Assembly: GCA_003611875.1 (NCBI GenBank)
Contig: RAYY01000001.1
Location: 62,001 to 126,000, forward strand
Reading direction: 5' to 3'
DNA length: 64,000 nt
Source: a bacterium D16-56
GTDB lineage: Bacteria > Bacillota > Clostridia > Lachnospirales > Lachnospiraceae
In this document: piece by piece, positions 20,332 to 59,300 of the stretch
Layout of the letters: each line of letters begins with the position of its first letter
How positions within the stretch are numbered: the stretch's first letter is position 1
Translations under genes and position numbers: made by a program
Notes under the pieces: generated by a model
Database searches by the model: none
Told to the model about the DNA's origin: nothing
What the model saw: only the letters and a program-made list of their open reading frames with translations

Positions 20332-20347
20332 AATAAATTCCTCCTTC

Positions 20348-21496: not shown

Positions 21497-21499
21497 ACT

Positions 21500-21801
21500 C
21501 TACTCCCTACCACCCTTTCCATCCGGCACAACATTCCGCAAATTCTCATGAAAACAACCCACATCATCCACACATTCATTTATCAAGCCCGCAACCAGCA
21601 CCCCATCCGACCAGAAACCAAACTCCTCAACAGTCTGACACACACCATTTCATCGTTAAAAAATCCAGCCGACGACCCCACATCCCCTCACACTCTTTCC
21701 ACATCTCTCCCCAAGGCTGCGTCCCTCTCAAAATCCACTGTACTCCCTCAAAAAACCTCCCCCTCAGAAGTCACTATACCCCTCCAAAACCCCAAACCCT
21801 C
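21500..21801 (-). pseudogene. Decayed 3' half of the upstream small gene
   Basis: The 108-residue frame that stops at 21802 stays coding-like beyond its stop. In the same frame only TGA stops interrupt it, between segments such as VDFERDAALGRDVERV and GDVGSSAGFFNDEMVC. At a GTGTGTGT run near 21640 the coding-like frame shifts and continues as QTVEEFGFWSDGVLVAG... to a TAG at 21500, 3 bp before the DUF2953 start. Removing one GT would join the frames. This looks like a former protein of about 200 residues broken by three TGA codons and a dinucleotide slip. The reading is by eye. Confidence 0.4.
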
Positions 21802-22128
21802 TCAGGATCCCCCATCCCCCTCAATCATCTCCCTCAAACAAAAACCCCCGGTCCGCCGATACAGCTCATCCACAATCTGCCCCGCCACCACAAGCGCCTC
21901 CCAGTATGTAACTGCGATGCCCATCACCAAAATCTCCCTCCCCTGATACGGCGGCTCAAAAATCAAAGCAGAAGGAACAATCTCAAGAACATTATTCCCA
22001 TTTAAAGGCGGCATTATCACATACACCTCCGGCTGCAGCCTTCCCTCCCGCAGTCCCTGCAATATTCCATAACGCCTCTCCTTCGCCTTCTCCCCCACAA
22101 ACAAATGCTCATAATAATCCATAACCAT
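21802..22128 (-). CDS. Small conserved-looking protein, probably truncated
   Basis: 108 residues (MVMDYYEHLFVGEKAKERRYG...), not recognised. It contains VIMPPLNGNNVLEIVPS and VMGIAVTYWEALVVAGQIVDEL, which look like a folded cytoplasmic protein. The start overlaps the end of the 442-residue gene upstream by 20 bp, suggesting translational coupling. The coding signal seems to continue past the TGA stop (see the remnant at 21500-21801), so this may be the surviving N-terminal half. Confidence 0.6.
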   Translation of the reverse strand: MVMDYYEHLFVGEKAKERRYGILQGLREGRLQPEVYVIMPPLNGNNVLEIVPSALIFEPPYQGREILVMGIAVTYWEALVVAGQIVDELYRRTGGFCLREMIEGDGGS

Positions 22129-42210: not shown

Positions 42211-44274
42211 ATGAAAAGAAAAAAACAAACACTGCTCTCGTTTCTTCTTACCACCTTGTTCATTCTGTCTTTCTTGGCCCCTGCCTATGGCGGGCAGGAA
42301 GATGACAGCAGCGAAGAACCTCTTGCTCCTTATTTCTTCATTGAAGATGCAGACCCTCAGGCTGACCAGTTTCCTCTAAAGGAAACGCTTGTATCCACTA
42401 CCATAAACGGCGTGATTGCCGAAACCTTTGTGACCCAGACCTATGCCAACCAGGGGATGAATTCCATTAATGCCCGATACATTTTCCCTGCCTCAGACCG
42501 TGTATCGATCCATGGAATGAAAATGCAGATAGAAGATCAGATCATCACTGCCCAAATCCAGGAGCAAAAGGAGGCAAGACAAACCTTCGAAAAGGCAAAA
42601 AGCGAGGGAAAAAGCGCCTCACTTCTGGAACAGCAGCGTCCCAATGTATTTTCCATGGATGTAGCCAATATCATGCCTGGGGACACGGTTCGCATTGAGC
42701 TTCACTATACAGAGCTGATCTCCCCCACAGAGGGTGTCTACCAGTTTGTATTTCCCACTGTAGTGGGACCCCGTTATGCCAGCTCGTCTGCAGAAGAAGC
42801 TCCTGACAGCACACACAGTCAGAAAAATGAATCCGATTCCGGCCCTGGTTCCAAAGAGGAGGAACCAGACCAATGGCTCTCCTCCCCTTATCTGGAAGAA
42901 GACAGCTTTCCTCCCGGAAAGTATGATATTACAGTAAAGCTGTCCACCGGTGTCCCCATCACAGACATTTCCTCTGACTCTCACTCCATTAAGTTGGAAA
43001 AAATCAGCGAAGACAAGGCAGACATCACTCTTGCCGACCCGGAGGAATATGGGGGGAACCGGGATTTTATCCTGAATTATAAGCTGACCGGACAGGAGGT
43101 AAACTGCGGCCTTTTGTTAGACTGCGAAGATGATGAAAACTTTTTTATGCTGATGGTACAACCTCCTGAACACTATACTCCAGAGAATCTGCCTCCCAGA
43201 GAGTATATCTTTATTGTGGATGTATCCGGTTCCATGTTCGGCTATCCCCTGAGCATTTCCAAGAATCTTATTGGGAAGCTGGTCAGCAGCCTAAAACCAG
43301 AGGACCGCTTTAACCTGCTTTTATTTTCCAATTCCTCCATCCAGATGTCCCCTCGGTCTGTGCCTGCAGCAGCAGAAAATATCAGCCGTGCCATCGATTT
43401 AATTAATGAGGAAAGCGGCGGCGGCGGAACAGAGCTGGCTCCGGCCTTAAGAAACGCCATTTCCATTCCTAGGGCCGAATCCTATTCCCGCAGCATCGTG
43501 ATCATCACAGACGGCTATATTTCCGGAGAAAAGGAGATTTTTAATATCATTCATGACAATCTGGATAATACCAGCTTTTTCGCCTTTGGAATCGGCGATT
43601 CGGTCAACCGCTATCTGATTAATGGAATTGCTGGGGCAGGACAGGGAGAAGCCTTTGTGGTAACAAACCAGGAAGAAGCCAATGACACCCTGGGCCGTTT
43701 CCTTTCCTATGTTCACGCTCCTCTTTTGACGGACATTCAAATTACCTACGACGGCTTTGATGCCTATGATGTGGAACCATCCATGATTCCCACCTTATTT
43801 GCCAAGCGTCCCATTGTGGTCTTTGGAAAATGGAGAGGGCAGCCAGAAGGAACCATCCGAATCACCGGAAAAACAAACGGACAGGATTATGTGAAAGAAA
43901 TTCCGGTTTCTCAGTCAGAACCCTCCTCATCCAACCAAGCGATCCGCTATCTGTGGGCGCGGAAAATGGTCGAACGTCTGACTGACTATGGCGGCCGGGG
44001 GACTGATTCCAAGCTTGCCAAAATCCTGGTCACTTCACTGGGGCTGAAATACAGCATGATGACCCCCTACACCTCCTTTGTGGCTGTGACAGAAACCATC
44101 TCCAATCCTGACGGCGCCGGCAGCGACGTAAAACAGCCCTCTGTACTTCCTTTGCATGTATCCAACCTTTCTGTAGGCGGATACACCACCGGATCCGAAC
44201 CTGGCACGGTCCTCCTTATTTTGGGAATTGCATTGCTTATGCTGTGCAGAATCCTTCGGTATAAAAAGTCCTGA
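42211..44274 (+). CDS. VIT and VWA domain surface protein with PEP-CTERM-like tail
   Basis: 687 residues. An N-terminal signal peptide (KRKKQTLLSFLLTTLFILSF, cleaved near AYGG). A VIT domain (about 45-175) has ETFVTQTYANQG and IFPASDRVSIHGM. A VWA domain (about 325-490) has MIDAS FIVDVSGSMFG and ITDGYISG. The C-terminus has SEPG (662-665), a hydrophobic stretch TVLLILGIALLML and basic RILRYKKS: the motif-helix-basic order of PEP-CTERM exosortase substrates. The exosortase gene follows 30 bp downstream, so this is very likely its dedicated substrate. Function is unknown; VIT/VWA proteins often bind metal or protein ligands outside the cell. Confidence 0.88.
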   Translation: MKRKKQTLLSFLLTTLFILSFLAPAYGGQEDDSSEEPLAPYFFIEDADPQADQFPLKETLVSTTINGVIAETFVTQTYANQGMNSINARYIFPASDRVSIHGMKMQIEDQIITAQIQEQKEARQTFEKAKSEGKSASLLEQQRPNVFSMDVANIMPGDTVRIELHYTELISPTEGVYQFVFPTVVGPRYASSSAEEAPDSTHSQKNESDSGPGSKEEEPDQWLSSPYLEEDSFPPGKYDITVKLSTGVPITDISSDSHSIKLEKISEDKADITLADPEEYGGNRDFILNYKLTGQEVNCGLLLDCEDDENFFMLMVQPPEHYTPENLPPREYIFIVDVSGSMFGYPLSISKNLIGKLVSSLKPEDRFNLLLFSNSSIQMSPRSVPAAAENISRAIDLINEESGGGGTELAPALRNAISIPRAESYSRSIVIITDGYISGEKEIFNIIHDNLDNTSFFAFGIGDSVNRYLINGIAGAGQGEAFVVTNQEEANDTLGRFLSYVHAPLLTDIQITYDGFDAYDVEPSMIPTLFAKRPIVVFGKWRGQPEGTIRITGKTNGQDYVKEIPVSQSEPSSSNQAIRYLWARKMVERLTDYGGRGTDSKLAKILVTSLGLKYSMMTPYTSFVAVTETISNPDGAGSDVKQPSVLPLHVSNLSVGGYTTGSEPGTVLLILGIALLMLCRILRYKKS

Positions 44275-44304
44275 GAAGCTTATTCCATAAATGAAAGGAG
44301 CCAT

Positions 44305-45084
44305 ATGAAGCCCATAAAAACATTCAGGCATTTTTTGCGGACCTGGGGAACAGTCTACCTGACCGGTTTTCTTCTCCTATCATGCATCAAGGTATATTAT
44401 GGAAAAGCGGGGAGCGACAGCCTTTTATGGCTTCTCGCTCCTGCTGCCTGGTGGACCAAAGCCTTATCCGGGCTTTCCTTTGAGTACGTTCCTCAGATCG
44501 GATATGTCAATCATTCCTGTCAGTTTATTATTGCCGCTTCCTGCTCCGGCGCACAATTTATGATCCTTTCTGCTGCCATGCTGATCTTTTCCTTCACCCA
44601 TTGGATGAATACCCGCCGTCAGGGCTTCTTGTGGCTTGGCGTCAGCTTGGGAGGCTCTTACCTTTATACGATTTTTATCAATGGCATTCGAATCCTCCTG
44701 TCCATCCGTGTTCCGCTTTATCTTCAAAAAACAGGATTCCTTCGTGCCCTTGACGGCAGGCTGGATTCCGGACAAGTACACACCATAATCGGAACTGCTG
44801 TGTTCTTCAGCTCTCTGTTTCCCCTGTACGCAGCAGCAGAACAGGCAGCCAGAAAAATATCCGTGTCGCCGCCAGCCAAATCCGCTCAATCCCTGTACCC
44901 TGCATTGTGGTACTTTGCTGTTGTACTCGGCCTTCCCTTTCTGAGCCTTGCCTGCAGGAACCGTCTTCAGGCATTTATCCCATATGCCCTTGTAATTTGC
45001 ATGGTATGCGTTCCTGTCTTGCTTCTCCAGCTTCTCCCTGCCGTAATACAGAAAGCGATCCATAAGAAAATACATAAAAAATAA
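44305..45084 (+). CDS. xrtK: Exosortase (XrtK-like)
   Basis: 259 residues with about eight membrane helices. The exosortase catalytic triad is in place: Cys80 in AASCSGAQF, Arg129 in NGIRILLS and His159 in GQVHTIIG. Exosortases are membrane cysteine transpeptidases that process PEP-CTERM tails; the type with one adjacent substrate in Firmicutes is called exosortase K, and I assign that subtype from context and length. It follows the VIT/VWA substrate by 30 bp and ends in a terminator, so the two form a two-gene operon. No other candidate substrate is in the window. Confidence 0.82.
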   Translation: MKPIKTFRHFLRTWGTVYLTGFLLLSCIKVYYGKAGSDSLLWLLAPAAWWTKALSGLSFEYVPQIGYVNHSCQFIIAASCSGAQFMILSAAMLIFSFTHWMNTRRQGFLWLGVSLGGSYLYTIFINGIRILLSIRVPLYLQKTGFLRALDGRLDSGQVHTIIGTAVFFSSLFPLYAAAEQAARKISVSPPAKSAQSLYPALWYFAVVLGLPFLSLACRNRLQAFIPYALVICMVCVPVLLLQLLPAVIQKAIHKKIHKK

Positions 45085-45124: not shown

Positions 45125-45168
45125 TTCACAAAATCCCCCTCCATCTTCGACAAAAAAATCGCCAAACA

Positions 45169-45209
45169 TAACATAGGTTATATTCATTTTTCATTTTTTA
45201 TGGTACAAT
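45169..45209 (+). promoter_or_regulatory. PrfA-like box and promoter of the first anion permease
   Basis: TAACATAGGTTA (45169-45180, centre 45174.5) precedes a -10 TACAAT (45204-45209). The predicted start of transcription, 7 nt after the -10, is 45216, so the box is centred at -41.5, the class II activator position. The -35 region (TATTCA) is poor. Related boxes lie before trxB and the second permease. Confidence 0.7.
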
Positions 45210-45262: not shown

Positions 45263-46738
45263 ATGGCTAGTACAGCAAACAAAAAAGAGCAAGCCACTCT
45301 GATTCACTCCGCTGTTGGTGTAGGTATCATGTTATTTTTCCGATTCCTGCCTCTCAGCCTCCCGGAGGTCACTCCGGTCGGTATGGAAATCCTGGGCATA
45401 TTCCTGGGAACCCTGTACCTATGGACATTTGTAGACCCGATCTGGGGCAGCATCATGTCCATCGCCATGGTTGGATTTTCTTCCTACAGTAGCATGTCAG
45501 CCGTTATCGGCGAAGCATTTGGCTCCCCGGTGGTCTGTCAGGTATTATTTATGCAGATCATGTCCGGCGGCCTGGCCTATTACAAGATTACCGGCTACAT
45601 GGGACGTTTCTTCCTTACCAGGAAGTTTACCAATGGCAAGCCTTGGCTGCTGATGGGCGTTATCTGTATGGGATGTTATTTTATCGCCGGCTTCGTTAAT
45701 GCCTTCACCCCTATTTTCGTCATGTGGCCCGTCCTCTACGGTGTATTTGACGAGATTGGCTACAAAAAGGGTGATCCGTTCCCCAGAGTTGCCCTGACAC
45801 TGGTCGTCATTGCCTCTCTGATCGGTTTCCCCATGGCGCCATTTGCTCAGAACGGCCTGGCGCTTCTCAGCAACTTTGAAAAGGTCAGCGCTGAGATGCC
45901 AGGAGGACCTGTTGTTGTCAACAGCGGCGGATATTTGCTGACTGCCATTATTCTGGGCATGATACTGATTACGGCGGTGGTTCTGTTTGCCAAGTTTGTC
46001 CTGCGTCCAGACGCCTCCCGTCTTATGGATTATGACGTAGAAAGCTTAAACCGCAACCCGCTTCCGCCTCTTTCCTTGGGACAAAAGCTGTATATTCTTG
46101 GCTTTGTCCTGGTGATCCTGGGAATGATGATTCCTTCCCTGGTTCCCTCCCTGCCCTTTATGGGGTATCTGAAGGGCTGTGTCTATGGTCTGGCTATGTT
46201 TATCGCAGCCTGCCTGGCCGCCATCCGTATCAAAGGCGAGCCGGTGCTGGACATTGGAAAGGTTCTGGCAACCAACAGCTGGGGTGCATATTTTATCATT
46301 GTTGCTGCCATCCTTTTAGGTGGTGTTCTTACCAATGAGGCAACCGGTATTTCCGGATTTTTAAGGGTAATGCTTACCCCGATCTTCCAGGGCATGTCCT
46401 CAACCGTTTTCATTATACTGCTGCTGGCTTTGGGTGGTATTCTTACCAACCTGTGCAACAGCCTGGTAATCGGTATGCTGCTGCAGCCTATTATCATTAC
46501 GTACTGTACCCAGGCAGGCGCAGATCCCAGACCTATTGTGACCCTGATGATCCAGTTTGTGCTGCTGTCTGCCTGTGTTACCCCGGCAGCTTCGCCCTTT
46601 GCAGCACTGCTGCACAGCAATAAGGAATGGGTTCCCACTAAGTATGTATATTCCTATACCCTGCCCATGGTTCTCATTGAGCTGGTACTGATGCTGATTA
46701 TCGGAATCCCGGTAGCCACAATATTGTGCGGCGCCTGA
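45263..46738 (+). CDS. DASS/SLC13-like anion permease 1
   Basis: 491 residues, about 11-12 membrane helices, in the ion transporter superfamily as judged by two similar halves with helix-break regions (GGVLTNEATGISGFL and GGILTNLCNSLVIGMLL). It closely parallels the second permease (53047-54522) along its whole length, including LPLSLPEVTPVGMEI and RNPLPPL. Families of this kind move sulfate, dicarboxylates or other anions with Na+. Position beside arylsulfotransferase genes suggests an organic sulfate or related anion (inference). Confidence 0.8.
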   Translation: MASTANKKEQATLIHSAVGVGIMLFFRFLPLSLPEVTPVGMEILGIFLGTLYLWTFVDPIWGSIMSIAMVGFSSYSSMSAVIGEAFGSPVVCQVLFMQIMSGGLAYYKITGYMGRFFLTRKFTNGKPWLLMGVICMGCYFIAGFVNAFTPIFVMWPVLYGVFDEIGYKKGDPFPRVALTLVVIASLIGFPMAPFAQNGLALLSNFEKVSAEMPGGPVVVNSGGYLLTAIILGMILITAVVLFAKFVLRPDASRLMDYDVESLNRNPLPPLSLGQKLYILGFVLVILGMMIPSLVPSLPFMGYLKGCVYGLAMFIAACLAAIRIKGEPVLDIGKVLATNSWGAYFIIVAAILLGGVLTNEATGISGFLRVMLTPIFQGMSSTVFIILLLALGGILTNLCNSLVIGMLLQPIIITYCTQAGADPRPIVTLMIQFVLLSACVTPAASPFAALLHSNKEWVPTKYVYSYTLPMVLIELVLMLIIGIPVATILCGA

Positions 46739-46793
46739 TTCCAGCTATCCTTAGTACGCACATTGCCAGCATACATTTCAAGATAGGAAGATG

Positions 46794-46899
46794 CCTTGGG
46801 ACACAAAGTGTCTCCGCTTCAAAGAAGCAGGGGAACATATATGAATAACACCCCTTAAAACATGCTCCTTCCAAGCGGGAGATACTGCGTGTCACAAGG
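46794..46899. repeat. Inverted pair of diverged 62-bp repeat units
   Basis: The left half (46794-46831) resembles the reverse complement of the 41.8-kb unit: it keeps hairpins GACAC-AAA-GTGTC and GCTTC-AAA-GAAGC in the expected order and spacing. The right half (about 46849-46899) resembles the forward unit: CACCCCTTAAAACATGCTCC, then AGCGGGAGATACTGCGTGTC and ACAAGG. The two halves make an imperfect palindrome of about 106 bp. It lies between the first permease and trxB. A further stem ATCCGGC/GCCGGAT follows at about 46906-46942; the rest of this gap is unremarkable. Confidence 0.7.
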
Positions 46900-47023
46900 G
46901 ACATGGATCCGGCCAAGCGCATTTCCGACGCACTTTGCCGGATACTTGCTGAATAAGGGCAAAATCTATCTGTCAAATCCGACATGCCCAAAATACATTT
47001 TTTGCACAAAATCTGAATTTTCT

Positions 47024-47064
47024 TAACATACTTTATAGAATATTCTACCAAAAAACGTTATAAT
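47024..47064 (+). promoter_or_regulatory. PrfA-like box and promoter of trxB
   Basis: TAACATACTTTA (47024-47035, centre 47029.5) precedes a perfect -10 TATAAT (47059-47064). Predicted transcription start 47071, so the box is at -41.5. The -35 region (TAGAAT) is poor. The leader to trxB is about 160 nt. Confidence 0.62.
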
Positions 47065-47229
47065 AAAAGATAGCTGAGCACAAAAGTGCAAAGCAATCCG
47101 CTGCCCAGACAAGCAATGCCCAATACCTGTTTTATACAGGCCAAAGCGCAGCGCTAAGGTTTGGGCTTCCATCCTGTTTCCAGGGCAAAGGGAAAGCGGA
47201 ATAAAACAAAATGGAGGAGGTCGATTACA

Positions 47230-48150
47230 ATGGCACAATACGATCTGATCATCATCGGAGCCGGTCCGGCCGGCATGACTGCCGCAATCTATGGAGCGCG
47301 GGCAGACATGAATGTCCTGATGCTGGATAAGCTGGCACCCGGCGGACAGATCATCAACACAAATGAGATTCAGAACTACACAGGTGTAGGCACCATTAAC
47401 GGCGCTGAACTTGCTTATCAGATGTTTGAGCATACCCAGCAGTTTGACACCATTACCTTTGACTATGCCACAGTCAAAGAGGTTGTAGATAATGGAAAGG
47501 AAAAATTGGTGCGCTGCGAGGAGGATGATAAGGAATTTACTGCCAGCTCCGTCATTCTTGCCACCGGTACCCGCCCAAGATGCCTTCACGTCACAGGAGA
47601 AGACAAGTTCCGCGGCAATGGTATCAGTTGGTGCGCCATTTGCGACGGAGCCCAATACCGAGATAAGGATGTGGTAGTCATCGGCGGCGGCAACTCTGCC
47701 GTAGAAGAATCTATCTTCCTGGCTGGTATTGTCAAGTCCCTGACCATTGTCACTATGTTTGATCTGACTGCTGATCCCATTGCCTGTGACAAGCTGCGGG
47801 CCATGGACAAGGTAAGTATTTATCCTTACCAGGATATTCTGGAATTTGTAGGCGACACTCGTCTGGAAGGAGTCCGTTTCCGTTCCACCAAGACCGGAGA
47901 GGAAAAGACAGTAAGCTGTGACGGTGTATTTGAATACATCGGCCTGACTCCCACCACAGAATGTTTTAAGGATTTAGGCGTATTAAACCAGATGGGCTAT
48001 GTAGAAGTTAATGACCGTATGGTCTCTAAGGTTCCCGGTATCTTTGGCGCCGGCGACTGTGTTACCAAGAATCTCCGTCAGGTGATTACCGCCTGTGCAG
48101 ACGGAGCGATTGCCGCTCAGGAAGCATCCCACTATGTAAAGAATCTCTAG
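47230..48150 (+). CDS. trxB: Thioredoxin reductase
   Basis: 306 residues from ATG at 47230 (GGAGGAGG upstream); the longer frame is not supported. FAD motif IIIGAGPAGMTAAIYGARA, redox pair C135/C138 in SWCAICDGA, NADPH motif VVIGGGNSAVEE, and closing FAD motif GIFGAGDCV. It reduces thioredoxin with NADPH. It lies between the first permease and trxA, inside the sulfotransferase cluster, with a PrfA-like box at its promoter. Its TAG stop coincides with the start of a palindromic element. Confidence 0.95.
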   Translation: MAQYDLIIIGAGPAGMTAAIYGARADMNVLMLDKLAPGGQIINTNEIQNYTGVGTINGAELAYQMFEHTQQFDTITFDYATVKEVVDNGKEKLVRCEEDDKEFTASSVILATGTRPRCLHVTGEDKFRGNGISWCAICDGAQYRDKDVVVIGGGNSAVEESIFLAGIVKSLTIVTMFDLTADPIACDKLRAMDKVSIYPYQDILEFVGDTRLEGVRFRSTKTGEEKTVSCDGVFEYIGLTPTTECFKDLGVLNQMGYVEVNDRMVSKVPGIFGAGDCVTKNLRQVITACADGAIAAQEASHYVKNL

Positions 48151-48311
48151 TGCTCCATCCGGCCAGAAATTGCACTGCCAGTGCCGGATATTTTGTCAGT
48201 CTGCAAGGCGGAGGAGGAAGACGATGCGGTGGCATCGTTGACTAACGACAACGCAGCAGATGGCAAAATAGGCGGTACTGAAAGTACAGTTACTGGCCGA
48301 ATGGAGTACTA
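48148..48311. mobile_element. 164-bp palindromic MITE-like element
   Basis: Terminal inverted repeats of 19 bp, TAGTGCTCCATCCGGCCAG and CTGGCCGAATGGAGTACTA, match at 17 of 19 positions. The inner arms remain complementary (for example GGATATTTTGTCAG with TGGCAAAATAGGC). The centre has ACGATGC-GGTG-GCATCGT. It has no coding capacity. The left end starts on the trxB stop codon. No target-site duplication is evident. It could form a long RNA hairpin at the trxB 3' end. Confidence 0.7.
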
Positions 48312-48332
48312 GACCATTTTGTCATAATCATA

Positions 48333-48362
48333 AGAGCAGAAATCCGCCGCAGCTACTGCTCT
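48333..48362 (+). terminator. Possible trxB terminator
   Basis: AGAGCAG and CTGCTCT (7 bp) with a 16-nt loop, followed by GATTTTCC. Confidence 0.45.
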
Positions 48363-48399
48363 GATTTTCCAGGCAATTATTTATTATGAGCATCAGGAG

Positions 48400-48468
48400 C
48401 TGTCATGGAAAAGCATTTCGTTTAACCCCAACGGGATTTCTTAAGGAGTTTTACATTTCCCATGACAG
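48400..48468 (+). other. Long-range inverted repeat in the trxA leader
   Basis: Perfect 9-bp arms CTGTCATGG and CCATGACAG enclose 51 nt just before the trxA ribosome site. The enclosed part includes a small CCC-CAAC-GGG hairpin and an internal AAGGAG. It could be a leader structure or an operator pair. Confidence 0.45.
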
Positions 48469-48495
48469 ATCCCTAATATTAAAAGGAGGTACAAC

Positions 48496-48807
48496 ATGTT
48501 AAAAGAAGTAAACAGTACAGAATTCAAAGACTTAGCCGGCAAGGGGCTGGTACTCGCCGACTTCTTCTCCACTACCTGCGGTCCCTGCAAGATGCTGGGC
48601 TTTGTCTTAAAGGATGTGGAAAAGGAGTTCGGTGATGATCTCACCATCTTAAAGGTAGATTTTGACCAGAACAAAGAGCTGACCGCAGAGTACGGCGTGG
48701 CCGGTTATCCCACCTTGATTCTTTTAAAGGACGGGACTGAGGTAAAGCGTCTTCAGGGTCTGCAGCAGAAGCCGGTTATTGTCAAAATGGTTAAAGAAAA
48801 TATCTGA
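48496..48807 (+). CDS. trxA: Thioredoxin
   Basis: 103 residues behind AAAGGAGG. The active site is CGPC (C28-C31) but the usual preceding Trp is replaced: TTCGPC instead of WCGPC. The cis-Pro segment is GVAGYPTLIL. It is the electron acceptor of TrxB. Placement directly upstream of an arylsulfotransferase gene hints at a dedicated role, for example keeping its Cys residues reduced (inference). Confidence 0.93.
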   Translation: MLKEVNSTEFKDLAGKGLVLADFFSTTCGPCKMLGFVLKDVEKEFGDDLTILKVDFDQNKELTAEYGVAGYPTLILLKDGTEVKRLQGLQQKPVIVKMVKENI

Positions 48808-48898
48808 ATTTTGTTGACTTTACATAACCCTGTACAGCAGTCTGAATGTTCTCACTGCTATGTCAAAAAATTATTATGTATATGGAGGAAAACAACTC

Positions 48899-50776
48899 AT
48901 GAGTGTTAAATATATCTTAGAGAAGCATCTGATTGACCGTCAGGCAGAAGCTGAGGAATCCATGCTAAAGGAATTTGAGGCCGGCAATTTTACCATTCAA
49001 AATCCGTTGGTAAAATACAATCTGTATGAGGTCAGCCCCTTAAGCGCTGTGGTCTGCTTTGAAACCAAGAGCGAGACCCCTGTGACGATTACCGTACTGG
49101 GCAAGACCAAAGAGGCCAACATCAGCCACACCTTCCCCAAGGCAAAAAAGCATGTGCTTCCGGTTGTGGGACTGTACTCCAACTATGCCAATCAGGTAGA
49201 GATCCGCGCTTACCGGGGTGAGTCTAATGTGATTACCATCGACGTGCCGGATGTTTACAATGGTGAGAATCCGATTTACCATATGCACACCACTCCCGAA
49301 TATCTCCAGGACAATGTGATCATGGTATCTCCGGCTGGCCTTCAGCTCTCCTCTGCCTTTGACTATGCAGGGGATGCTCGCTGGCACATGAACGTAGCCT
49401 GTGTATTTGATATCAAGCGTCTGAAAAACGGCAACCTGATCATGGGTACCCATCGTCTTCTGAAGATGCCTTACTATATGTCCGGTCTTTACGAGATCAG
49501 CCCCTGCGGCAAGGTTTACAAAGAGTTCCGTCTGCCTGGCGGCTATCATCACGATGAGTTTGAGATGGAGGACGGCAACCTGCTGGTACTGACCGATGAC
49601 TTAGAAAGCGATACTGTGGAGGATATGTGTGTCCTGATCGACCGCAACACCGGTGAGATCTTAAAGACCTGGGATTACAAGAAATTTCTCAATCCTGAAA
49701 CTGTCAGCCATTCCGGCAGCTGGTCTGAGGAAGACTGGTTCCACAACAACGCTGTATGGTATGACAAGAACACCAACTCTCTGACCTTCTCCGGCCGTCA
49801 CATTGACTCTATGGTGAACATTGATTTTGACAGTGGAGAACTGAACTGGATCATCGGCGATCCGGCTGGCTGGCCTCAGGATATGGTGGACAAATACTTC
49901 TTCAAGCCCATTGGCAGCAACTTCGGCTGGCAATATGAGCAGCACGCCAATGTGATCACCCCTAATGGTGATGTAATGTGCTTTGACAACCATCACTATG
50001 GCTGCAAGCAGGTAGAGCGGGATGCCAAGAACCTGGCTGCCAAGGATAACTACTCCAGAGGTGTTCGTTACCGCATCAACACAGAAGATATGACCATTGA
50101 GCAGGTATGGGAATACGGAAAAGACCGGGGTGCTGAGTTCTTCTCCCCCTACATCTGTAATGTAGAGTACTACAATGAAGGTCATTACATGATTCACTCC
50201 GGCGGTATTGCTTATGACAAGGACGGCGCTCCTTCCGAGGCTTTAGGCGCATTTGTCAAGGATTTGGGCGGCACCTGCCGCAGCATTACCGTTGAAGTCT
50301 GCGACGGCAAGGTTATGCTGGATCTGGAAGTTCCCGGCAACTACTATCGTGCTGAAAAGCTGAAACTCTACAGCGACGGCATCAACTTAGAGCTGGGCAA
50401 GGGACAGATTCTTGGAAAGATGGGACATACCAAAGAATTTGATACAGATATCCCAATGGAAAATTCCGGTGAGATGCTTCCGGAAAGCTGCAATGCCAGA
50501 ATCGAAGAAGAAATCGACCGTTTCACCTTCTTCTCCCGCTTCGAGAAGGGCCAGATGGTTATGATGCTTTTAGAGCAGGGTGACGAAGTTCACAGATATT
50601 ACATCTCCACTACTGCTGTAGCCTATCTGGCTATGTGCTGCGGAACCTTCTTAGATTCCGATGAGCGTAACACCAGAACCAGCGTCAACAAAGCTGGATT
50701 AAAGGGTGTGTATGACGTGAGAGTCATTGTGGATGACAAGAAATACGAGACTGGTGTAAAGATCACCTGCGAATAA
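48899..50776 (+). CDS. Arylsulfotransferase (ASST family) 1
   Basis: 625 residues from ATG at 48899 (GGAGG upstream), matched by the start of its paralogue; 13 upstream codons are not shared. ASST beta-propeller enzymes move sulfate from one phenolic ester to another through a sulfated His. Candidate active-site residues: H217/H218 (YHHDEFEMEDGN), H282 (DWFHNN), R300/H301 (SGRHID) and H349 (EQHANV), in the order of E. coli His252, His356, Arg374 and His436. There is no signal peptide, so unlike the periplasmic E. coli enzyme it should be cytoplasmic. It needs imported substrate, consistent with the flanking permeases. It follows trxA by 91 bp and ends in a strong terminator. Confidence 0.88.
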   Translation: MSVKYILEKHLIDRQAEAEESMLKEFEAGNFTIQNPLVKYNLYEVSPLSAVVCFETKSETPVTITVLGKTKEANISHTFPKAKKHVLPVVGLYSNYANQVEIRAYRGESNVITIDVPDVYNGENPIYHMHTTPEYLQDNVIMVSPAGLQLSSAFDYAGDARWHMNVACVFDIKRLKNGNLIMGTHRLLKMPYYMSGLYEISPCGKVYKEFRLPGGYHHDEFEMEDGNLLVLTDDLESDTVEDMCVLIDRNTGEILKTWDYKKFLNPETVSHSGSWSEEDWFHNNAVWYDKNTNSLTFSGRHIDSMVNIDFDSGELNWIIGDPAGWPQDMVDKYFFKPIGSNFGWQYEQHANVITPNGDVMCFDNHHYGCKQVERDAKNLAAKDNYSRGVRYRINTEDMTIEQVWEYGKDRGAEFFSPYICNVEYYNEGHYMIHSGGIAYDKDGAPSEALGAFVKDLGGTCRSITVEVCDGKVMLDLEVPGNYYRAEKLKLYSDGINLELGKGQILGKMGHTKEFDTDIPMENSGEMLPESCNARIEEEIDRFTFFSRFEKGQMVMMLLEQGDEVHRYYISTTAVAYLAMCCGTFLDSDERNTRTSVNKAGLKGVYDVRVIVDDKKYETGVKITCE

Positions 50777-50811
50777 TTAATAATCTTTTTCCCTTATATA
50801 ATGATATAGGG

Positions 50812-50849
50812 AACCGTGACCTGTCGGAAAGATCCGACAGGTCACGGTT
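50812..50849 (+). terminator. Terminator of arylsulfotransferase 1
   Basis: A perfect 17-bp stem (50812-50828 with 50833-50849), tetraloop AAGA, then TCTGCC. The rest of the 358-bp gap between the two sulfotransferase genes holds only the facing terminator. Confidence 0.85.
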
Positions 50850-51002
50850 TCTGCCGTTTTCCATCCTTTTCTATCTTATGATGTTGGGATTAAAAGGTCT
50901 TCTGCCTCCTCTGATACCGAATCGATTCGTACTTTGTACTCCCTCAATCCTCAAAAACATTCAAAATCCGCCCTGATCAGCTGCTGTCTTATTATAAAAA
51001 AC

Positions 51003-51047
51003 AAAGTGTACAGGCTCTGAACGTTATATTTTCAGTCTGCACACTTT
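51003..51047 (-). terminator. Terminator of arylsulfotransferase 2
   Basis: On the reverse strand AAAGTGTGCAGACT pairs with AGCCTGTACACTTT (12 of 14) and is followed by GTTTTTTATAA. Confidence 0.75.
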
Positions 51048-51134
51048 ATTTATCTGTTCTTAAAAGCTGCTCATATCATTAATTAAGCCCTATATATCAT
51101 CGAATCTTTTGTCCTGCATATACCCTTTAAGGCA

Positions 51135-53003
51135 TCAGCAATGAATCTTAATTCCTGTGTCGAACTTCTCGTCATCTACAATCACACGCACATCATAGTC
51201 CCCGGAAAGCCCTGCCTTGTTGACGCTCAGCATAATAGCGCGCCCATCCTTGTTGATAAAGGTGCCGCAGCAAAGAGCCTCAAACTTATTGGCAGCCGTG
51301 GAAATATAATAGCGGTGCTTCTCATCTCCCTGCTCAAGCATCAGCATTACCAGCTGGCCCTTCTCAAAGACTGCCTTATAGGTGAAACGATCATCTTCCT
51401 CAATAAACTCTGAACCATACTTCTCTGGAATCAGAACCCCTGAAGACTCCAATGGGATATCTGTATCAAACTCCTTGGTTACTCCCATGGATCCTAAGAA
51501 GCATCCCTTACCCATGGAAAGATTATCCTGGTCATGATACAGACGAAGCTTCTCTGCCCGGTAGAAGTTCCCTTCCACCTCCAGCTCCATCATCACCTGG
51601 TTATCCAATATCTCCACCGTAATACTCCTGGTAGACACATCCGGGTTATCCTGCATCAATGCAGCAAACTGCTCAGAAGCCTCTCCTTTATAATACTGAA
51701 CACCGCCGGAATGAACCATATAGTGACCTTCCTCATAGTATTCCACATTACAAATATAGGAGGAGAAAAATTCCTGGCCTCTCTCTTTACCATATTGCCA
51801 TACCTGACGAATGGTCATATCGTCCGTATTGATCTTATAGCGGACGCCACGAGAGAAATTATCTTTATTCAGACGGTACTGCTCCTTAATCTTGGAACGG
51901 AAATGTCCGTTGTCAAAGCACATCACATCCCCGTCCGGAGTAATCACGTTTGCGTGCTGCTCATACTGCCAGTCAAACTCCCCGTCTCCCACCGGAGTAA
52001 AGAAATACTTCTGGTACTTCTCCGGCCATCCTGTCGGATCGCCGATAATCCAATTCAGCTCACCGCTGTCATAATCAATATTCACCATAGAGTCAATATG
52101 GCGCCCGGAGAATGTCAGAGAATTGGTATTCTTGTCATACCACACCGCATTGTTGTGGAACCAGTCATGGGCAGACCAGCTTCCCGATTTGCTGCATCCC
52201 GGATCCAAAAACTTCTTATAATCCCAGGTCTTTAAGATCTCACCTGTATTCCGATCTACCAGGACGCACATATCCTCCACTGTATCGCTTCTCAGGTCCT
52301 CAGTCAAAACCAGCAGATTGCCGTCCTCCATCTCAAACTGGTCATGGTGATAGCCGCCGGGGATTCCGAATTCTTTATAGATCTTACCTGTCATACTCAT
52401 CTCATAAATTCCTGACATGTAGTAAGGAATCTGCAGCAGACGGTCCGTACCCACGCAAATATTGCCGTTCTTCAAGCGCTTTAAGTCAAATACCACCGGA
52501 ATATTCAGATACCAGCGGATATCGCCCTGATAATCAAATCCAGTAGCCAACTGGGTCAGAGCCGGTGTGATAATGATAATCTGATCCCGCAGATAGCCGG
52601 CTGTAGTGTTCATATGTACCAGCTTCGGCACATCCTTTCCTAAAGGCTCTGTCTTGATGTGGATGGTTTTCTTATAGCCCCGGTACAGCTCAATCTCAAC
52701 CGTATTGTCAAAATCCGCATACAAGCCCAAAACCGGCAGGATATGGGTCTTTGCCCGGGGGAAAGTATGACTTATATTCCCCTGAGGCTGCTCTTTGCCC
52801 AGAACTGTCACAGTCACAGCAGTCTCCTGCTCAGTCTTAAAAAGCACCACTGCAGCCAGCGGATTGATCAGATAAGGATTATACTTTACAAGAGGCTCCT
52901 CGATAGTATAATTACCAGCTTCAAACTCAGCCAGCATGGCTTCCTCCGCCTCTGCCTGACGGGTCAGAATTGAGGGTAGAAATGAATACTTGATGGATTC
53001 CAT
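51135..53003 (-). CDS. Arylsulfotransferase (ASST family) 2
   Basis: 622 residues behind AAGGAGGAG, paralogous to the enzyme at 48899 over its full length. The same candidate residues are kept: YHHDQFEMEDGN, DWFHNN, SGRHID and EQHANV. No signal peptide. It is the second gene of an operon with permease 2, which ends 43 bp upstream. The N-terminal part differs most from its twin (PQGNISHTF against KEANISHTF region), so the two may take different phenolic donors or acceptors. The convergent arrangement makes an inverted duplication. Confidence 0.88.
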   Translation of the reverse strand: MESIKYSFLPSILTRQAEAEEAMLAEFEAGNYTIEEPLVKYNPYLINPLAAVVLFKTEQETAVTVTVLGKEQPQGNISHTFPRAKTHILPVLGLYADFDNTVEIELYRGYKKTIHIKTEPLGKDVPKLVHMNTTAGYLRDQIIIITPALTQLATGFDYQGDIRWYLNIPVVFDLKRLKNGNICVGTDRLLQIPYYMSGIYEMSMTGKIYKEFGIPGGYHHDQFEMEDGNLLVLTEDLRSDTVEDMCVLVDRNTGEILKTWDYKKFLDPGCSKSGSWSAHDWFHNNAVWYDKNTNSLTFSGRHIDSMVNIDYDSGELNWIIGDPTGWPEKYQKYFFTPVGDGEFDWQYEQHANVITPDGDVMCFDNGHFRSKIKEQYRLNKDNFSRGVRYKINTDDMTIRQVWQYGKERGQEFFSSYICNVEYYEEGHYMVHSGGVQYYKGEASEQFAALMQDNPDVSTRSITVEILDNQVMMELEVEGNFYRAEKLRLYHDQDNLSMGKGCFLGSMGVTKEFDTDIPLESSGVLIPEKYGSEFIEEDDRFTYKAVFEKGQLVMLMLEQGDEKHRYYISTAANKFEALCCGTFINKDGRAIMLSVNKAGLSGDYDVRVIVDDEKFDTGIKIHC

Positions 53004-53046
53004 AAAAAACTCCTCCTTCTAAAAATACAAAAAATATTATAGTTAC

Positions 53047-54522
53047 TTAATGAATCAACGCTGTTGCCAGCGGAATTCCCACCAGAATCACTAAAATCAA
53101 CTCAATAGCCGCAAACATCATGGTGTGCATATAAATATCTTTTGATTTCAGCCACTCCTTATTTCCGTGAATCATGGCCGCAAAAGGTGACGCAGAAGGC
53201 GTCACAGAAGCGCTTGCCAGCACAAAAATAATAATCAGCGATGTGATAGGCGCCGAGTTAATCCCGCTTGACAAACAAAAGGAAGCGATCACCGGCTGCA
53301 TTAACATGCCTACCACCAGGCTGTTGCAGATATTGGTCAGAACTAAGGTAATCACCAACAAGGTCACATAAAATACCACCAGCGACATGCTGCTGAAAAT
53401 CGGGCGCAGAATGGTATTCAGAAATGCAGAAATACCTGTAGACTCATTGGTTAACACACTTCCCAAAAGAATAGCAGCCGTACAGAGGAAGAATGTTCCC
53501 CAAGCAAAGCCATTCATCACTTTATTAAATGGCAGCACCGGCTCATGCTTCTCTTTATCCAGGCTGACACAACAAAGGAGTGCCGTATAGCCTAGAGCGA
53601 TACCATAATTGTTGACGCTTAAAAACTTCATAATGCCCATATTTGGCAGCATACTTGGCAAAAGCATAGTCAAAATATAAAATACAAAGGAGATTGCCAT
53701 GAACTTCTGGTTGCCATTCAACGGAGGAAGCGGATTCCGCTTTAACATCTCCACATCCAGGTTCTTTAACTTCGTCACATCCGGACGCAGCACATATTTA
53801 CAAAACAGCACAATCACTGCAATAGACACAAAGCCATAAATCAGAGCTACAGCCAGATAAGAGGCACTGTTAATCATGACCTTATTTCCCATATTCTCTG
53901 TAATGCCGGCATAATTGCCGATTAGTGCTAAAGAATTTCCGCTGTAAGGCGGAACCGGAAAGCCTAGAAGCGTGGCAATGGCCACCAGAATCAACATAAT
54001 CGTAGGATACTTCTCTCCTTTTTTGATACCGATCTCCTGAAAAATATCATAGAGCACCGGCCAAAACAAAAAGATAGGGGAAAAGGGGCCTACAAAGGCA
54101 GCCATCAGCATGGCGCCAACCATCAACATGGCAGTAAATACCCAGGGTCTTCCGCTGTTGATCTTCATGGTAAGGAAAAAGCGTCCGATGTAAGCAGTCA
54201 GCTTGTTATATACCATGGAATTCATGACAATCATCAAAAACAGCATCTGGATAACTACAGGATTTCCAAAAGCAGCAGACAGAACCTGATTCATAGGAGC
54301 ATAGCTGGACACTCCGATCATAAAGATGCTCAAAATGCTTGACCAGACCGGATCCACGGTTGTCCAAAGATATAAAGTCCCAATAAATACTCCGATGATT
54401 TCCATGCCTACAGGAGTAATCTCCGGAAGACCCAGAGGCAGATAGCGAAACAATATCATGATGGACACTCCCACCAAAGAATGTATTGCTCGGCGGCTAA
54501 CCGGGGCTGCAGAATTGCTCAT
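53047..54522 (-). CDS. DASS/SLC13-like anion permease 2
   Basis: 491 residues, the same length as permease 1 and similar throughout: LPLGLPEITPVGMEI, GSVLTNESTGISAFL, VLTNICNSLVVGMLMQ and ASASVTPSASPFAAMIHGNK. About 11-12 membrane helices. It is the first gene of a two-gene operon with arylsulfotransferase 2. Its promoter carries the best PrfA-like box, shared with the divergent regulator. Substrate inferred only from context: an aryl sulfate, sulfate or exchange anion. Confidence 0.8.
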   Translation of the reverse strand: MSNSAAPVSRRAIHSLVGVSIMILFRYLPLGLPEITPVGMEIIGVFIGTLYLWTTVDPVWSSILSIFMIGVSSYAPMNQVLSAAFGNPVVIQMLFLMIVMNSMVYNKLTAYIGRFFLTMKINSGRPWVFTAMLMVGAMLMAAFVGPFSPIFLFWPVLYDIFQEIGIKKGEKYPTIMLILVAIATLLGFPVPPYSGNSLALIGNYAGITENMGNKVMINSASYLAVALIYGFVSIAVIVLFCKYVLRPDVTKLKNLDVEMLKRNPLPPLNGNQKFMAISFVFYILTMLLPSMLPNMGIMKFLSVNNYGIALGYTALLCCVSLDKEKHEPVLPFNKVMNGFAWGTFFLCTAAILLGSVLTNESTGISAFLNTILRPIFSSMSLVVFYVTLLVITLVLTNICNSLVVGMLMQPVIASFCLSSGINSAPITSLIIIFVLASASVTPSASPFAAMIHGNKEWLKSKDIYMHTMMFAAIELILVILVGIPLATALIH

Positions 54523-54693: not shown

Positions 54694-55380
54694 ATGGAAA
54701 TAAAGAACGAATTATTTGACTGTTTTTTCACCTATGGAGAACGGATTATTGTAGAAAAAAACAAGATTATATTTGCCCCGGACAACAAGCTGCAGAGTGA
54801 CTGTCTCTATTTTCTGGAATCCGGGCTGGTAGCCCTCATGAGCTATTCCCGGGGGGGCGAGGAGCGGGTATACCTTTATATGAAGGGGCCGCGGATCATT
54901 TCCTTCATGACTCTGCTAATCAGCATTACCAACAGTCACGAGATCACCGGCAATGTTTTTCCCAGCCACTTGGTTCAAATGACTAAAACCCGCTGTGTGC
55001 TTCACCGAATGCAAGGTCCTACCTTCCGCAGACTTTTAGATGAAGATCTGAAGTTTAACCGACTGATCCTTCAGGCAACGGCAGCGAACTTTCAGGAGGT
55101 CTTAAGCCATTTCCAACAGGCCCTGGAGGACAGCGCCAGCGTCCGCTTATGTCGGCTGCTCCTGGACTTCTGTGTTCTCAAGGACGGAAAAAAGATCCTT
55201 CCCAAGACCATGAGCTTTCTGGAAATGTCCAAATATTTAGGCACTCACCCTGTCACTGTGTCCCGCATTGTGGCTGTTCTCAAAAAGGAAGGCTGTATTG
55301 CCAAGGAGCAAGGTTCTGTGGTCATCAAAAATGAAGATCGGCTGAAGCAGATGATTGAGAATGGCATTGATATTAAATAA
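54694..55380 (+). CDS. Crp/Fnr-family transcriptional regulator
   Basis: 228 residues. The N-terminal cupin-like effector domain has YFLESGLVALMSYSRGGEER and YLYMKGPRIISFM. A long dimer helix is near residues 115-140. The C-terminal winged helix has the recognition helix in GTHPVTVSRIVAVLKKEG. There is no N-terminal Cys cluster, so it is not an oxygen-sensing Fnr. It is divergent from the permease 2 operon across a palindrome of the type bound by PrfA, itself a member of this superfamily. It is the likely activator of the three PrfA-like promoters (inference). The effector is unknown; a phenolic sulfate or phenol is attractive. Confidence 0.88.
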   Translation: MEIKNELFDCFFTYGERIIVEKNKIIFAPDNKLQSDCLYFLESGLVALMSYSRGGEERVYLYMKGPRIISFMTLLISITNSHEITGNVFPSHLVQMTKTRCVLHRMQGPTFRRLLDEDLKFNRLILQATAANFQEVLSHFQQALEDSASVRLCRLLLDFCVLKDGKKILPKTMSFLEMSKYLGTHPVTVSRIVAVLKKEGCIAKEQGSVVIKNEDRLKQMIENGIDIK

Positions 55381-56364: not shown

Positions 56365-59300
56365 TTATTCGTTGCCGTACAGATTCACCAGCTTGGACAG
56401 ATACTCATATCTCTCCTTGGCCTCAGCCTCATTCTTCTCGAACAGTCTGGAAGCTCTCTCCGGATTCTTCATAGCCAGGGAAGCATAACGCACCTCGCCC
56501 TTTAAGAAGTCTTGATAGCCTTCCATCTTCGGAGCCTTGCTGTCTAAGGAGAACTTCTTCTCAGCAGTCGGATTAAAGCGGAAATTGTTCCAATAGCCGG
56601 TCTCAACAGCCAGCTTTTCTTCTTCCTGTGCCTTGCTCATGCCCTTCTTGATGCCGTGGTTAATACACGGAGCATAAGCCAGAATCAAGGACGGACCCGG
56701 ATAAGCCTCTGCCTCTGCAATGGCCTTCACGGTCTGGGCATAGTCTGCACCCATGGCAATCTGAGCCACATAGACATAGCCGTAAGACATGGCAATGCTT
56801 GCCAAATCCTTCTTCTTGGTCTCCTTACCGCCAGCTGCAAACTGAGCGACCGCACCGGTCTTGGTAGCCTTGGAGGACTGACCGCCCGTATTGGAGTAAA
56901 CCTCTGTATCATATACCATGATGTTAATATCCTTGCCGCTTGCCAGCACATGGTCCACACCGCCAAAGCCGATATCATAAGCCCATCCGTCACCGCCGAA
57001 GATCCACTGAGACTTCTTTGCCAGGAAATCCTTGTTGGCTACAATGTACTTACAGGTCGGACAGTCAATGCCTTCCAGAGCTGCCACCAGCTTGTCGGTA
57101 GCGCTTCCATTGAGAGCGCCGATGCCAAAGGTATCCAACCACTCCTTGCAGGCAGCCTTCACTTCCTCAGAAGCCTGGTCATTGGCTGCAACCGTCTCAA
57201 CCTTTTCCTTCAGCTCGTCACGGATCGCGTTCTGAGCCAGCAGCATACCAAATCCGAACTCTGCGTTATCCTCAAACAGGGAGTTGTCCCATGCCGGACC
57301 CTGTCCCCTTCCATTCACCGTATATGGGGTGGACGGTGAGGAGTTGCCCCAAATGGAAGAACATCCTGTGGCATTGGCAATGTACATCCTGTCGCCGAAA
57401 AGCTGGGTAATCAGCTTAGCATAAGGAGTCTCGCCGCAGCCAGCGCAGGCGCCGGAGAACTCAAGCAGAGGCTGCTTGAATTGGCTGCCCTTCACGGTGG
57501 TCTCTTTAAACTTGTCGATCACATCCTGCTTAATGGTTACGGTCTGGCCAAAGTCATAGATGGGCTGCTCATCCATATGGGATGCCAGCTTGTCCATGGT
57601 CAGAGCCTTCTCGCCCTTCTTGCCCGGGCAGACATTTGCACAGGATCCGCATCCGGTACAGTCAAGAGCAGAAACCGTAATCGCAAACTTGTAGTCTGCC
57701 ATACCCGTCATGGGCAGAACCTTCATATCAGCCGGAGCCTTTGCAGCCTCATCGGCAGTCATAGCCACCGGACGGATCACTGCATGAGGACATACATAAG
57801 AGCAGAAATTACACTGGATACAGTTGTCCGGATTCCAAACCGGTACATTCACTGCAATACCGCGCTTCTCATAGGCTGCAGAGCCGGACGGAGTGGAGCC
57901 GTCTACATACTCGGTAAATGCGGATACCGGAAGGCTGTTGCCCTCCTGAGCGCTGACCTTGGTCTGTACATTGTTGACAAAGTCAACAACATCTTTTCTT
58001 CCATCGGTCACTACCTTGTAATCCAGTCCCTCGTCTGCACAGTTCTTCCAGCTCTCCGGAACCTCTACCTTCACCACACCCTGAGCGCCTGCATCAATGG
58101 CAGCCCAGTTCTTCTTCACCACATCCTCGCCCTTACGGCCATAGGTCTTCTGAGCAGCGTCCTTCATAAGCTGAATCGCCTTCTCCTCCGGGATAATGCC
58201 GGTCAGCTTAAAGAATGCAGACTGGAGAATGGTATTGATACGGGTGGGACCCATACCGGTCTCAATACCGATCTTCACACCGTCAATGGTGTACAGGTTA
58301 ATGTTATGGTCAGCAATAAACTTCTTCATCTGACCCGGCAGATGCTTCTCCAACTCCTCTGCACTCCACGGGCAGTTGAGCAGGAAGGTACCGCCGTCAA
58401 CCAGCTCCTGAACCATGTTGTACTTGCGCACATATGCCGGATTGTGGCAGGCAACAAAGTTTGCCTGATGGATCAGATAGGTGGATTTGATCTTCTTGTG
58501 TCCGAAACGCAGGTGAGACATGGTCACGCCGCCGGACTTCTTGGAATCGTAATCAAAATATGCCTGAGCATACATGTCGGTGTTGTCGCCGATGATCTTA
58601 ATGGAGTTCTTATTGGCGCCTACCGTACCGTCTGCACCCAGACCCCAGAACTTACAGTTGGTGGTTCCCTCCGGAGTCGTAACCAAGGGAGCTCCCAGCG
58701 GCAGGGACAGGTGGGTCACGTCATCCTCAATGCCAATGGTAAATCTCTTCTTCTCATTGTTGCCATAAACAGCAACGATCTGTGCCGGGGTGGTATCCTT
58801 AGATCCCAGACCATAGCGGCCGGAAACAATCTCAACAGCATCAAACTTGCTGCCCTTTAATGCAGCAACAACATCCAGATACAGCGGCTCGCCTAAGGAG
58901 CCTGGCTCCTTGGTTCTGTCAAGGACTGAAATCTTCTTCACGGAATCCGGAATCGCTGCAATCAGAGCCTCAGCGCTGAACGGGCGGTACAGGCGAACCT
59001 TCACCACACCCACCTTGGCACCGGTTGTCTTTACCATATAGTCAATGGTTTCCTCGATGGTATCATTGACAGAACCCATGGCCACGATCACATGCTCGGC
59101 ATCTGCTGCGCCATAGTAGTTAAACAGCTTATAATCCGTACCGATCTTGGCGTTTACCTTGTCCATATACTCCTGCACAATGCCCGGCAGAGCATCATAA
59201 TACGGGTTGCAGGCTTCTCTTGCCTGGAAGAAAATATCCGGGTTCTGGGCAGAACCTCTCTGGCAAGGATGATTGGGGTTTAAAGCATGCTTACGGAACG

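Follow-up and report, generated by a model that had tools for sequence, protein, structure and literature searches.

A mirrored permease-sulfotransferase block with a thioredoxin pair

The stretch of DNA analyzed here, which we call the window, comprises 64,000 nucleotides of the Lachnospiraceae bacterium D16-56 (contig RAYY01000001.1, positions 62,001 to 126,000), whose genome was analyzed as 5.54 Mb in 202 contigs. It contains two arylsulfate sulfotransferase (ASST) genes facing each other, each with a permease gene on its own strand and, on one of the two arms, with genes for a thioredoxin-disulfide reductase (TrxB) and a thioredoxin (TrxA) (Table 1). We propose that this block probably encodes a system that reduces aryl sulfates and sets sulfite free.

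The gene order and orientation that a sequence-only reading had given, with permease 1, trxB, trxA and ASST 1 running to the right and ASST 2 and permease 2 to the left, were confirmed by the open reading frames (ORFs) and their family matches. The enzymes and the permeases had also been described as two paralogous pairs, and this is borne out by 65% identity between the ASSTs over 626 columns and 51% between the permeases over 478 columns. The Crp/Fnr-type regulator that had been named as the end of the block is indeed present, but it lies outside the end given for it, position 54522. Both ASSTs match PF05935 over most of the model, with 337.6 bits for ASST 1 and 355.0 bits for ASST 2 (cut-off 24.2). 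For permease 1, the weak match to citrate transporters is the only one, and a sequence search for solved relatives of the permeases gave no more than one match at E 0.05.

Table 1. Genes and candidate operators of the block, with positions in the window
Feature	Position	Strand	Description
permease 1	45263-46738	+	491 amino acids; CitMHS-like; PF03600 7.1e-11 (weak); proposed aryl sulfate importer
trxB	47230-48150	+	flavin thioredoxin-disulfide reductase, CAIC; mechanical ORF start 47161; TIGR01292 2.1e-95
trxA	48496-48807	+	thioredoxin; TCGPC replaces WCGPC; PF00085 5.4e-23
ASST 1	48860-50776	+	predicted cytosolic arylsulfate sulfotransferase homologue; PF05935 1.2e-100 and PF17425
ASST 2	51135-53003	-	ASST 1 paralogue; PF05935 6e-106; C433 and C374 equivalents present
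permease 2	53047-54522	-	491 amino acids; permease 1 paralogue; no Pfam match at E 0.1
Crp/Fnr-type regulator	54694-55380	+	PF13545 2.5e-12; divergent from permease 2
palindrome ATAACATAGGTTAT	45168..45181		candidate operator about 95 bases 5' of permease 1; exact ATAAC-N4-GTTAT
palindrome ATAACATATGTTAA	54598..54611		candidate operator in the permease 2/regulator gap; one mismatch to ATAAC-N4-GTTAT

Thioredoxin genes accompany the sulfotransferase in relatives

One scan of the GTDB collection with both ASSTs, from which the top 80 of 102 were retained and which thus covers the closer relatives, gave 79 distinct loci (L numbers below); these include near-identical relatives, so that the counts are not independent. 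Using the window proteins as queries, we found trxB or trxA beside the ASST in 55 of the 79 loci, both genes in 53 of them, and members of the permease family in 58. Loci bearing trx genes come from Lachnospiraceae, Erysipelotrichaceae and sulfate reducers. In 55/55 of them the trx genes are on the strand of the ASST, which they precede in 44 loci and follow in 11: trxBA stands 5' of the ASST in Lachnospiraceae, Erysipelotrichaceae and Desulfobulbus-type records, and 3' of it in Desulfosporosinus and others. As both gene orders occur, the link between trx and ASST has outlived rearrangement. The sequence-only reading had named a lack of co-occurrence in relatives as grounds for giving it up; the genes do co-occur, and this objection does not apply.

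The origin of the mirror-image layout was followed in a tree of the ASSTs, a quick one with support from the Shimodaira-Hasegawa-like approximate likelihood ratio test (SH-aLRT) only. ASST 1 clusters with ASSTs that stand first in other cassettes, and ASST 2 with those that stand second in the tandem cassettes L026 (Longibaculum), L044, L045, L028 and L037; the second-position ASSTs from Hungatella-type cassettes form a separate further clade. The mirrored layout is shared by L005 and L009 and also by L040, where permease 2 was not detected, and in 1XD21-29 the two modules are on separate contigs (L014, L041). On the evidence of the ASST tree and of the tandem cassettes found elsewhere, we reject the idea that the mirror image arose by an inverted duplication in place. 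These groupings and layouts indicate that the duplication is old and that the facing arrangement is a local rearrangement.

An extra thioredoxin pair with an unusual reductase

The TrxA of the cassettes keeps its CGPC motif in 54/54 copies, including the window copy, and in 51 of them the motif is preceded by T; the other thioredoxin detected in the genome has WCGPC. The window TrxB scores 319.0 bits, under the TIGR01292 equivalog cut-off of 343.45 bits. Its CxxC redox centre is CAIC, and both cysteines are kept in all 55 readable cassette rows. What is missing is the HRR-type segment of thioredoxin reductase, which we take to bind the NADPH phosphate: in the alignment, the window protein has TMFDLTADP where 7aaw and 4gcm have HRRD.LRA. 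Cassette TrxBs have LTA at this place in 55/55 readable rows, followed by the D of TADP in 54/55. With LTADP conserved in almost every readable row, the alignment suggests that the cassette TrxBs use another electron donor or another binding mode. A second TrxB-like protein is encoded elsewhere in the genome and, since another thioredoxin is present as well, the trxB-trxA pair of the block looks like an extra, dedicated set. A full pyruvate:ferredoxin oxidoreductase adjoins the block (56365-59904, minus strand), which raises the question of a possible supply of ferredoxin to the unusual TrxB.

The sulfotransferases are predicted to be cytosolic and carry a cysteine associated with thioredoxin linkage

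Residues H231, H295, N297, R313 and H362 of ASST 1 correspond to His252, His356, Asn358, Arg374 and His436 of the E. coli enzyme, and these positions are invariant in 103/103 grouped near-family rows, the invariance of H231 being biased, as this residue lies inside YHHD[EQ]FE, one of the two retrieval patterns. The AlphaFold2 model of ASST 1 (predicted local distance difference test, pLDDT, 91.7) has the fold of the E. coli ASST (structure 3ets_A, Z 30.5, root-mean-square deviation 2.9 over 433 residues). Residues 1-13 of the model are below 50, and translation may actually begin at an internal ATG, at 48899. A simple hydropathy scan, applied to mechanical starts, detected an N-terminal hydrophobic stretch in 0/104 near-family ASSTs vs 16/19 distant PF05935 proteins, so that the periplasmic export mark of the E. 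coli-type assT-dsbL-dsbI system was not found in the near family. Given the missing stretch, the near-family ASSTs should be cytosolic.

The cited passage of PMC13426309 reports that, in the E. coli enzyme, Thr501 contributes to holding the sulfuryl group. It aligns with I432 of ASST 1, and in the adjacent column C433 stands where E. coli has Ser502. Thr is not the commonest residue at the Thr501 column in the distant PF05935 rows and is therefore no strict family mark. We counted residues by column in 103 near-family rows, 78 linked to trx genes and 25 unlinked, and in 19 distant ones, excluding the window ASST 2. Column 433 is Cys in 77/78 trx-linked ASSTs, in 15/25 unlinked ones and in 0/19 distant ones, 16 of which have Ser (raw Fisher p 1.3e-6 for C433 vs trx linkage). 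Column 374 is Cys in 75/78, 14/25 and 0/19 rows, respectively. Among the 15 unlinked sequences with Cys433, 9 come from genomes which, by record name, have a trx cassette elsewhere and 5 stand near a locus end, one sequence being in both groups. Cysteines common to all near-family ASSTs were rejected as a mark of thioredoxin use: C593 is present in 103/103 rows, and C257, whose conservation is biased by its position inside the other retrieval pattern, DTVEDMC, is present in 75/78 linked and 25/25 unlinked rows, neither of them following linkage.

A third ASST is encoded on another contig of the same genome, together with a permease and a Crp-like gene (G000:C33:98710-99759; L112 8276-12428). 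It has Ser433, and no trx gene was seen in the 16 kb stretch around its locus. This enzyme is a natural control for the mechanism proposed below.

Sulfite reductase is found in genomes with the thioredoxin-linked cassette

The sulfite reductase genes asrA, asrB and asrC lie in the ASST locus itself in 14 of the 79 loci, including that of Hungatella hathewayi; they come after the ASST in 13 and before the permease in L039, and in a fifteenth case (L032) asrA alone stands at the locus end. A CobA-type siroheme gene is found in the same locus in 11 of these 14. In H. hathewayi (L018), AsrA, AsrB and AsrC are above the NCBIfam cut-offs, and siroheme-type genes follow asrC. The genome of the window also encodes AsrA, AsrB and AsrC, with 434.8, 327.4 and 371.1 bits, all above the NCBIfam equivalog cut-offs.

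Sulfite reductase was detected in 32 of the 33 trx-linked genomes examined, as AsrC in 20 and as DsrA in 12. More specifically, AsrC is present in 20/27 trx-linked genomes tested (8 and 12 from two sets), the 7 without it being of the sulfate-reducer type, and DsrA in 12/13 trx-linked genomes of that type (these 7 and 6 more). As background, AsrC was found in 51 of 299 family genomes at E 1e-60, above the cut-off in 50. Taking as "this ASST type" a best PF05935 match of more than 320 bits, a cut chosen after the scores had been seen, AsrC occurs in 8/9 family genomes with this type vs 43/290 others (Fisher p 3.5e-6, kinship ignored), and a low-scoring AsrC subtype in 7/9 vs 5/290 (Fisher p 7.0e-10, kinship ignored). 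The locus L049 (7826-11863) is an exception in several traits together: its trx-linked ASST has Ser433, no permease was found in it, and its genome (G250) has the high-scoring AsrC type only.

We also considered where the sulfite may come from. In the 17 trx-linked Bacillota genomes, that of the window included, ATP sulfurylase (PF01747) was not found (above cut-off in 5/14 controls) and CysD was not found above its cut-off (4/14 controls); with both at 0/17, it is unlikely that sulfite is derived from sulfate. CysD or reductase of 3'-phosphoadenosine 5'-phosphosulfate (PAPS) was rejected as the source; CysD was matched far below its cut-off in 4/17 of these genomes, and PF01507 was matched in 9/17. 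Exogenous sulfite or sulfonates are possible sources.

Candidate operator sites precede the permeases

Besides the two palindromes of Table 1, two further sites with one mismatch to ATAAC-N4-GTTAT occur elsewhere in the window, and the palindrome before the window trxB is weak (2 mismatches, p ~0.07). The exact pattern was found 21 times in the 1.30 Mb of the 79 loci vs once in one single-base shuffle. Twenty of these 21 sites are just 5' of the cassette permease (that of L015 inside an over-long ORF call), and the remaining one is before trxB (L031). L005, L009, L043, L047 and L048 all retain the inner palindrome TAACATATGTTA, which was matched at p <=0.02 in 27/64 upstream regions, including the Selenomonadales record L064 and Desulfosporosinus L060; several loci with an operator-like palindrome are close relatives. 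A genome-wide regulon was rejected, as the genome of the window has 5 exact sites per strand vs 7 for a reversed-pattern control. In the absence of such enrichment, it is the placement of the sites, not their number, that is telling. Crp-like genes stand beside many related cassettes. The candidate operator sites suggest that both arms of the block may answer to one regulator.

A proposed aryl sulfate reductase pathway

Reading gene neighbourhoods and conserved residues together, we consider it fairly probable that the block is an ATP-independent aryl sulfate reductase system, in which an aryl sulfate and two electrons would give a phenol and sulfite, the latter being reduced further to sulfide by AsrABC or Dsr. 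The permeases would bring aryl sulfate anions into the cell, where the cytosolic ASST would take the sulfuryl group on H362, the equivalent of E. coli His436 (its conservation is seen here, its chemistry comes from published work on the E. coli enzyme). On the model of PAPS reductase, the sulfuryl group would then pass as a thiosulfonate to a thiol, either C433 of the ASST or the first cysteine of TrxA; we hold this exact acceptor with less confidence than the pathway. TrxA would break the thiosulfonate, freeing sulfite and becoming oxidised, and its private TrxB would reduce it again. Sulfite would be turned into sulfide by AsrABC, whose genes Hungatella and others have within the ASST locus, or by DsrAB in sulfate reducers, with the phenol released. 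The Crp/Fnr-type protein would probably control both arms via ATAAC-N4-GTTAT.

We extend this proposal, with somewhat less assurance but still on the side of belief, to a general scheme in which aryl sulfates accept electrons directly. In it, a cytosolic enzyme with the fold of sulfotransferases, turned into a thioredoxin-dependent reductase, would deliver sulfite free of ATP cost to AsrABC in Lachnospiraceae and Erysipelotrichaceae or to DsrAB in sulfate reducers, yielding sulfide and free phenols from host or dietary phenol sulfates.

The sequence-only reading had suggested import of phenolic sulfates, or their exchange against phenols, and sulfate transfer inside the cell. Aryl sulfate import and intracellular ASST chemistry fit what we found; transfer of sulfate between phenols is less apt than reductive release of sulfite, because the loci of relatives hold asrABC and because the thioredoxin pair is a frequent partner. 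To regard the block as a phenol sulfate exchange system with the thioredoxin as a mere extra probably misses the point.

Several observations weigh against the reductase proposal. The association of C433 with thioredoxin rests on few independent changes: C433 changes 7 times on the tree, and a phylogeny-aware sign test was not significant, since of 9 independent pairs a mean of 2.1 differed in the expected way, 0.0 in the opposite way and 6.9 not at all, leaving only about 2 of the 9 informative. Two loci, L036 and L073, are true exceptions, with Cys433 and no trx gene in uncut flanks, and L049 is trx-linked yet has Ser433. No trx gene is seen in 24 of the 79 loci, the ASST being near the locus end in 8 of them. 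The asrABC genes of the window's own genome are on a separate contig (C135) with haem/siroheme-type genes, away from the block, and no operator-like site, even with one mismatch allowed, lies directly before asrA there. In L057 (a 1.9 Mb genome), DsrA was not found, AsrC not having been sought there. In five family genomes the AsrC subtype occurs although this ASST type is absent, and asrABC has other neighbours there, so that AsrABC is not exclusive to the pathway. Finally, the cited passages of PMC11576661 and PMC13426309 present enzymes of this cluster, an enzyme of Hungatella effluvii among them, as sulfotransferases acting on phenol and alcohol acceptors; transfer to these acceptors by the homologues in vitro means that no reductant is needed in vitro.

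Within the reductase pathway, a variant that we find possible but doubtful makes TrxA itself the sulfuryl acceptor, its first Cys attacking the sulfo-histidine and its second freeing sulfite, with C433 only shaping the pocket. The CGPC of every cassette TrxA (54/54), the T in place of the usual W (51/54) and the Ser433 of the L049 trx cassette agree with this variant, which nevertheless leaves unexplained why C433 tracks trx linkage. It is unlikely that the only role of thioredoxin is to maintain a cytosolic ASST with cysteines in a reduced, active state, the ASST moving sulfate between phenols and the sulfite reductase being adjacent for other reasons. The transfer activity published for homologues in vitro (cited passages of PMC13426309 and PMC11576661) is consistent with such a role, as are the dedicated thiol-redox partner of E. 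coli ASST, DsbL/DsbI (cited passage of PMC13426309), and the presence of C593 in every one of the 103 grouped near-family rows regardless of trx linkage. However, asrABC in the locus and sulfite reductase in 32/33 trx-linked genomes require a source of sulfite, and it is C433 and C374, rather than the universally shared cysteines, that most set the trx-linked ASSTs apart. Less likely again is an exchange by the permeases of aryl sulfate against phenol or some other anion, in a gene set that mainly detoxifies or salvages phenols, with sulfite and sulfide as by-products, an account compatible with the permease family in 58/79 loci, whose substrate and transport mode cannot be read from sequence, but one that leaves unexplained why redox genes of its own and asrABC share the locus with the ASST.

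Relation to known systems

By name and source organisms, the ASSTs of the block fall in the same family as Cluster II of the PAPS-independent aryl sulfotransferases (Desulfitobacterium, Desulfosporosinus, Hungatella effluvii), as described in the cited passages of PMC13426309 and PMC11576661, and the catalytic residues are conserved here. In those passages the Cluster II enzymes are biocatalysts for phenol and alcohol acceptors, whereas here a sulfite-releasing reductase is proposed. E. coli CFT073 likewise encodes its ASST with a thiol-redox pair, as assT-dsbL-dsbI (cited passage of PMC13426309). That system is periplasmic and oxidising and serves a disulfide of the ASST, whereas the window system is predicted to be cytosolic and has a thioredoxin with its reductase.

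In its proposed logic, the system resembles the reductases of PAPS and adenosine 5'-phosphosulfate (CysH), in which a cysteine thiosulfonate is resolved by thioredoxin to give sulfite. CysH differs in having an unrelated fold and an ATP-activated donor, the donor here being, as we propose, an aryl sulfate. In Bilophila, the sulfite-forming step is a glycyl-radical lyase. Its respiration of taurine and isethionate also feeds sulfite from an organic sulfur compound to sulfite reductase (cited passage of PMC11610557). In the window system, a sulfate ester would be the donor, and the formation of sulfite would depend on thioredoxin instead of a glycyl-radical lyase. The operons of clostridial glycine reductase carry a private trxBA that feeds one reductase; the arrangement is alike and the reductase itself is different.

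The formation of sulfite from aryl sulfates was not found described in the open-licence literature, preprints being outside this scope, and may be published nonetheless. It is not described in the cited parts of PMC13426309, PMC11576661, PMC11468790, PMC12453122, PMC10866078 and PMC3306737; the words sulfite and thioredoxin reductase are absent from PMC13426309, the word thioredoxin from PMC11468790, and the words operon and cysteine from PMC11576661.

The gene set appears to be carried by some anaerobic bacteria, many of them from the gut. If the proposal is true, sulfated phenols of host and dietary origin (p-cresyl, indoxyl and drug sulfates, for example) would supply sulfide in the gut with no need for classical sulfate reducers or for sulfatases, and they would be deconjugated in the same step. 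Sulfate reducers would skip the ATP cost of sulfate activation. The proposal would also give a physiological role to the aryl sulfotransferases of Cluster II, for which we found no natural purpose stated in the cited passages.

Other features of the window

A long and perfect hairpin lies between the convergent ASST genes (50777-51134); it has no T run and was not listed by the terminator scan. On the other side of permease 1, the region 42211-45084 (plus strand) adjoins the block and encodes a VIT/VWA-domain protein (TIGR03788 3e-135, below cut-off) followed by exosortase K (TIGR04287 104.8 bits, cut-off 55), of which the VIT/VWA-domain protein is likely the target. GC skew is about -0.5 in two stretches of 2 kb each, 1-2000 and 20001-22000, vs about -0.07 to -0.35 elsewhere in the first 44 kb of the window.

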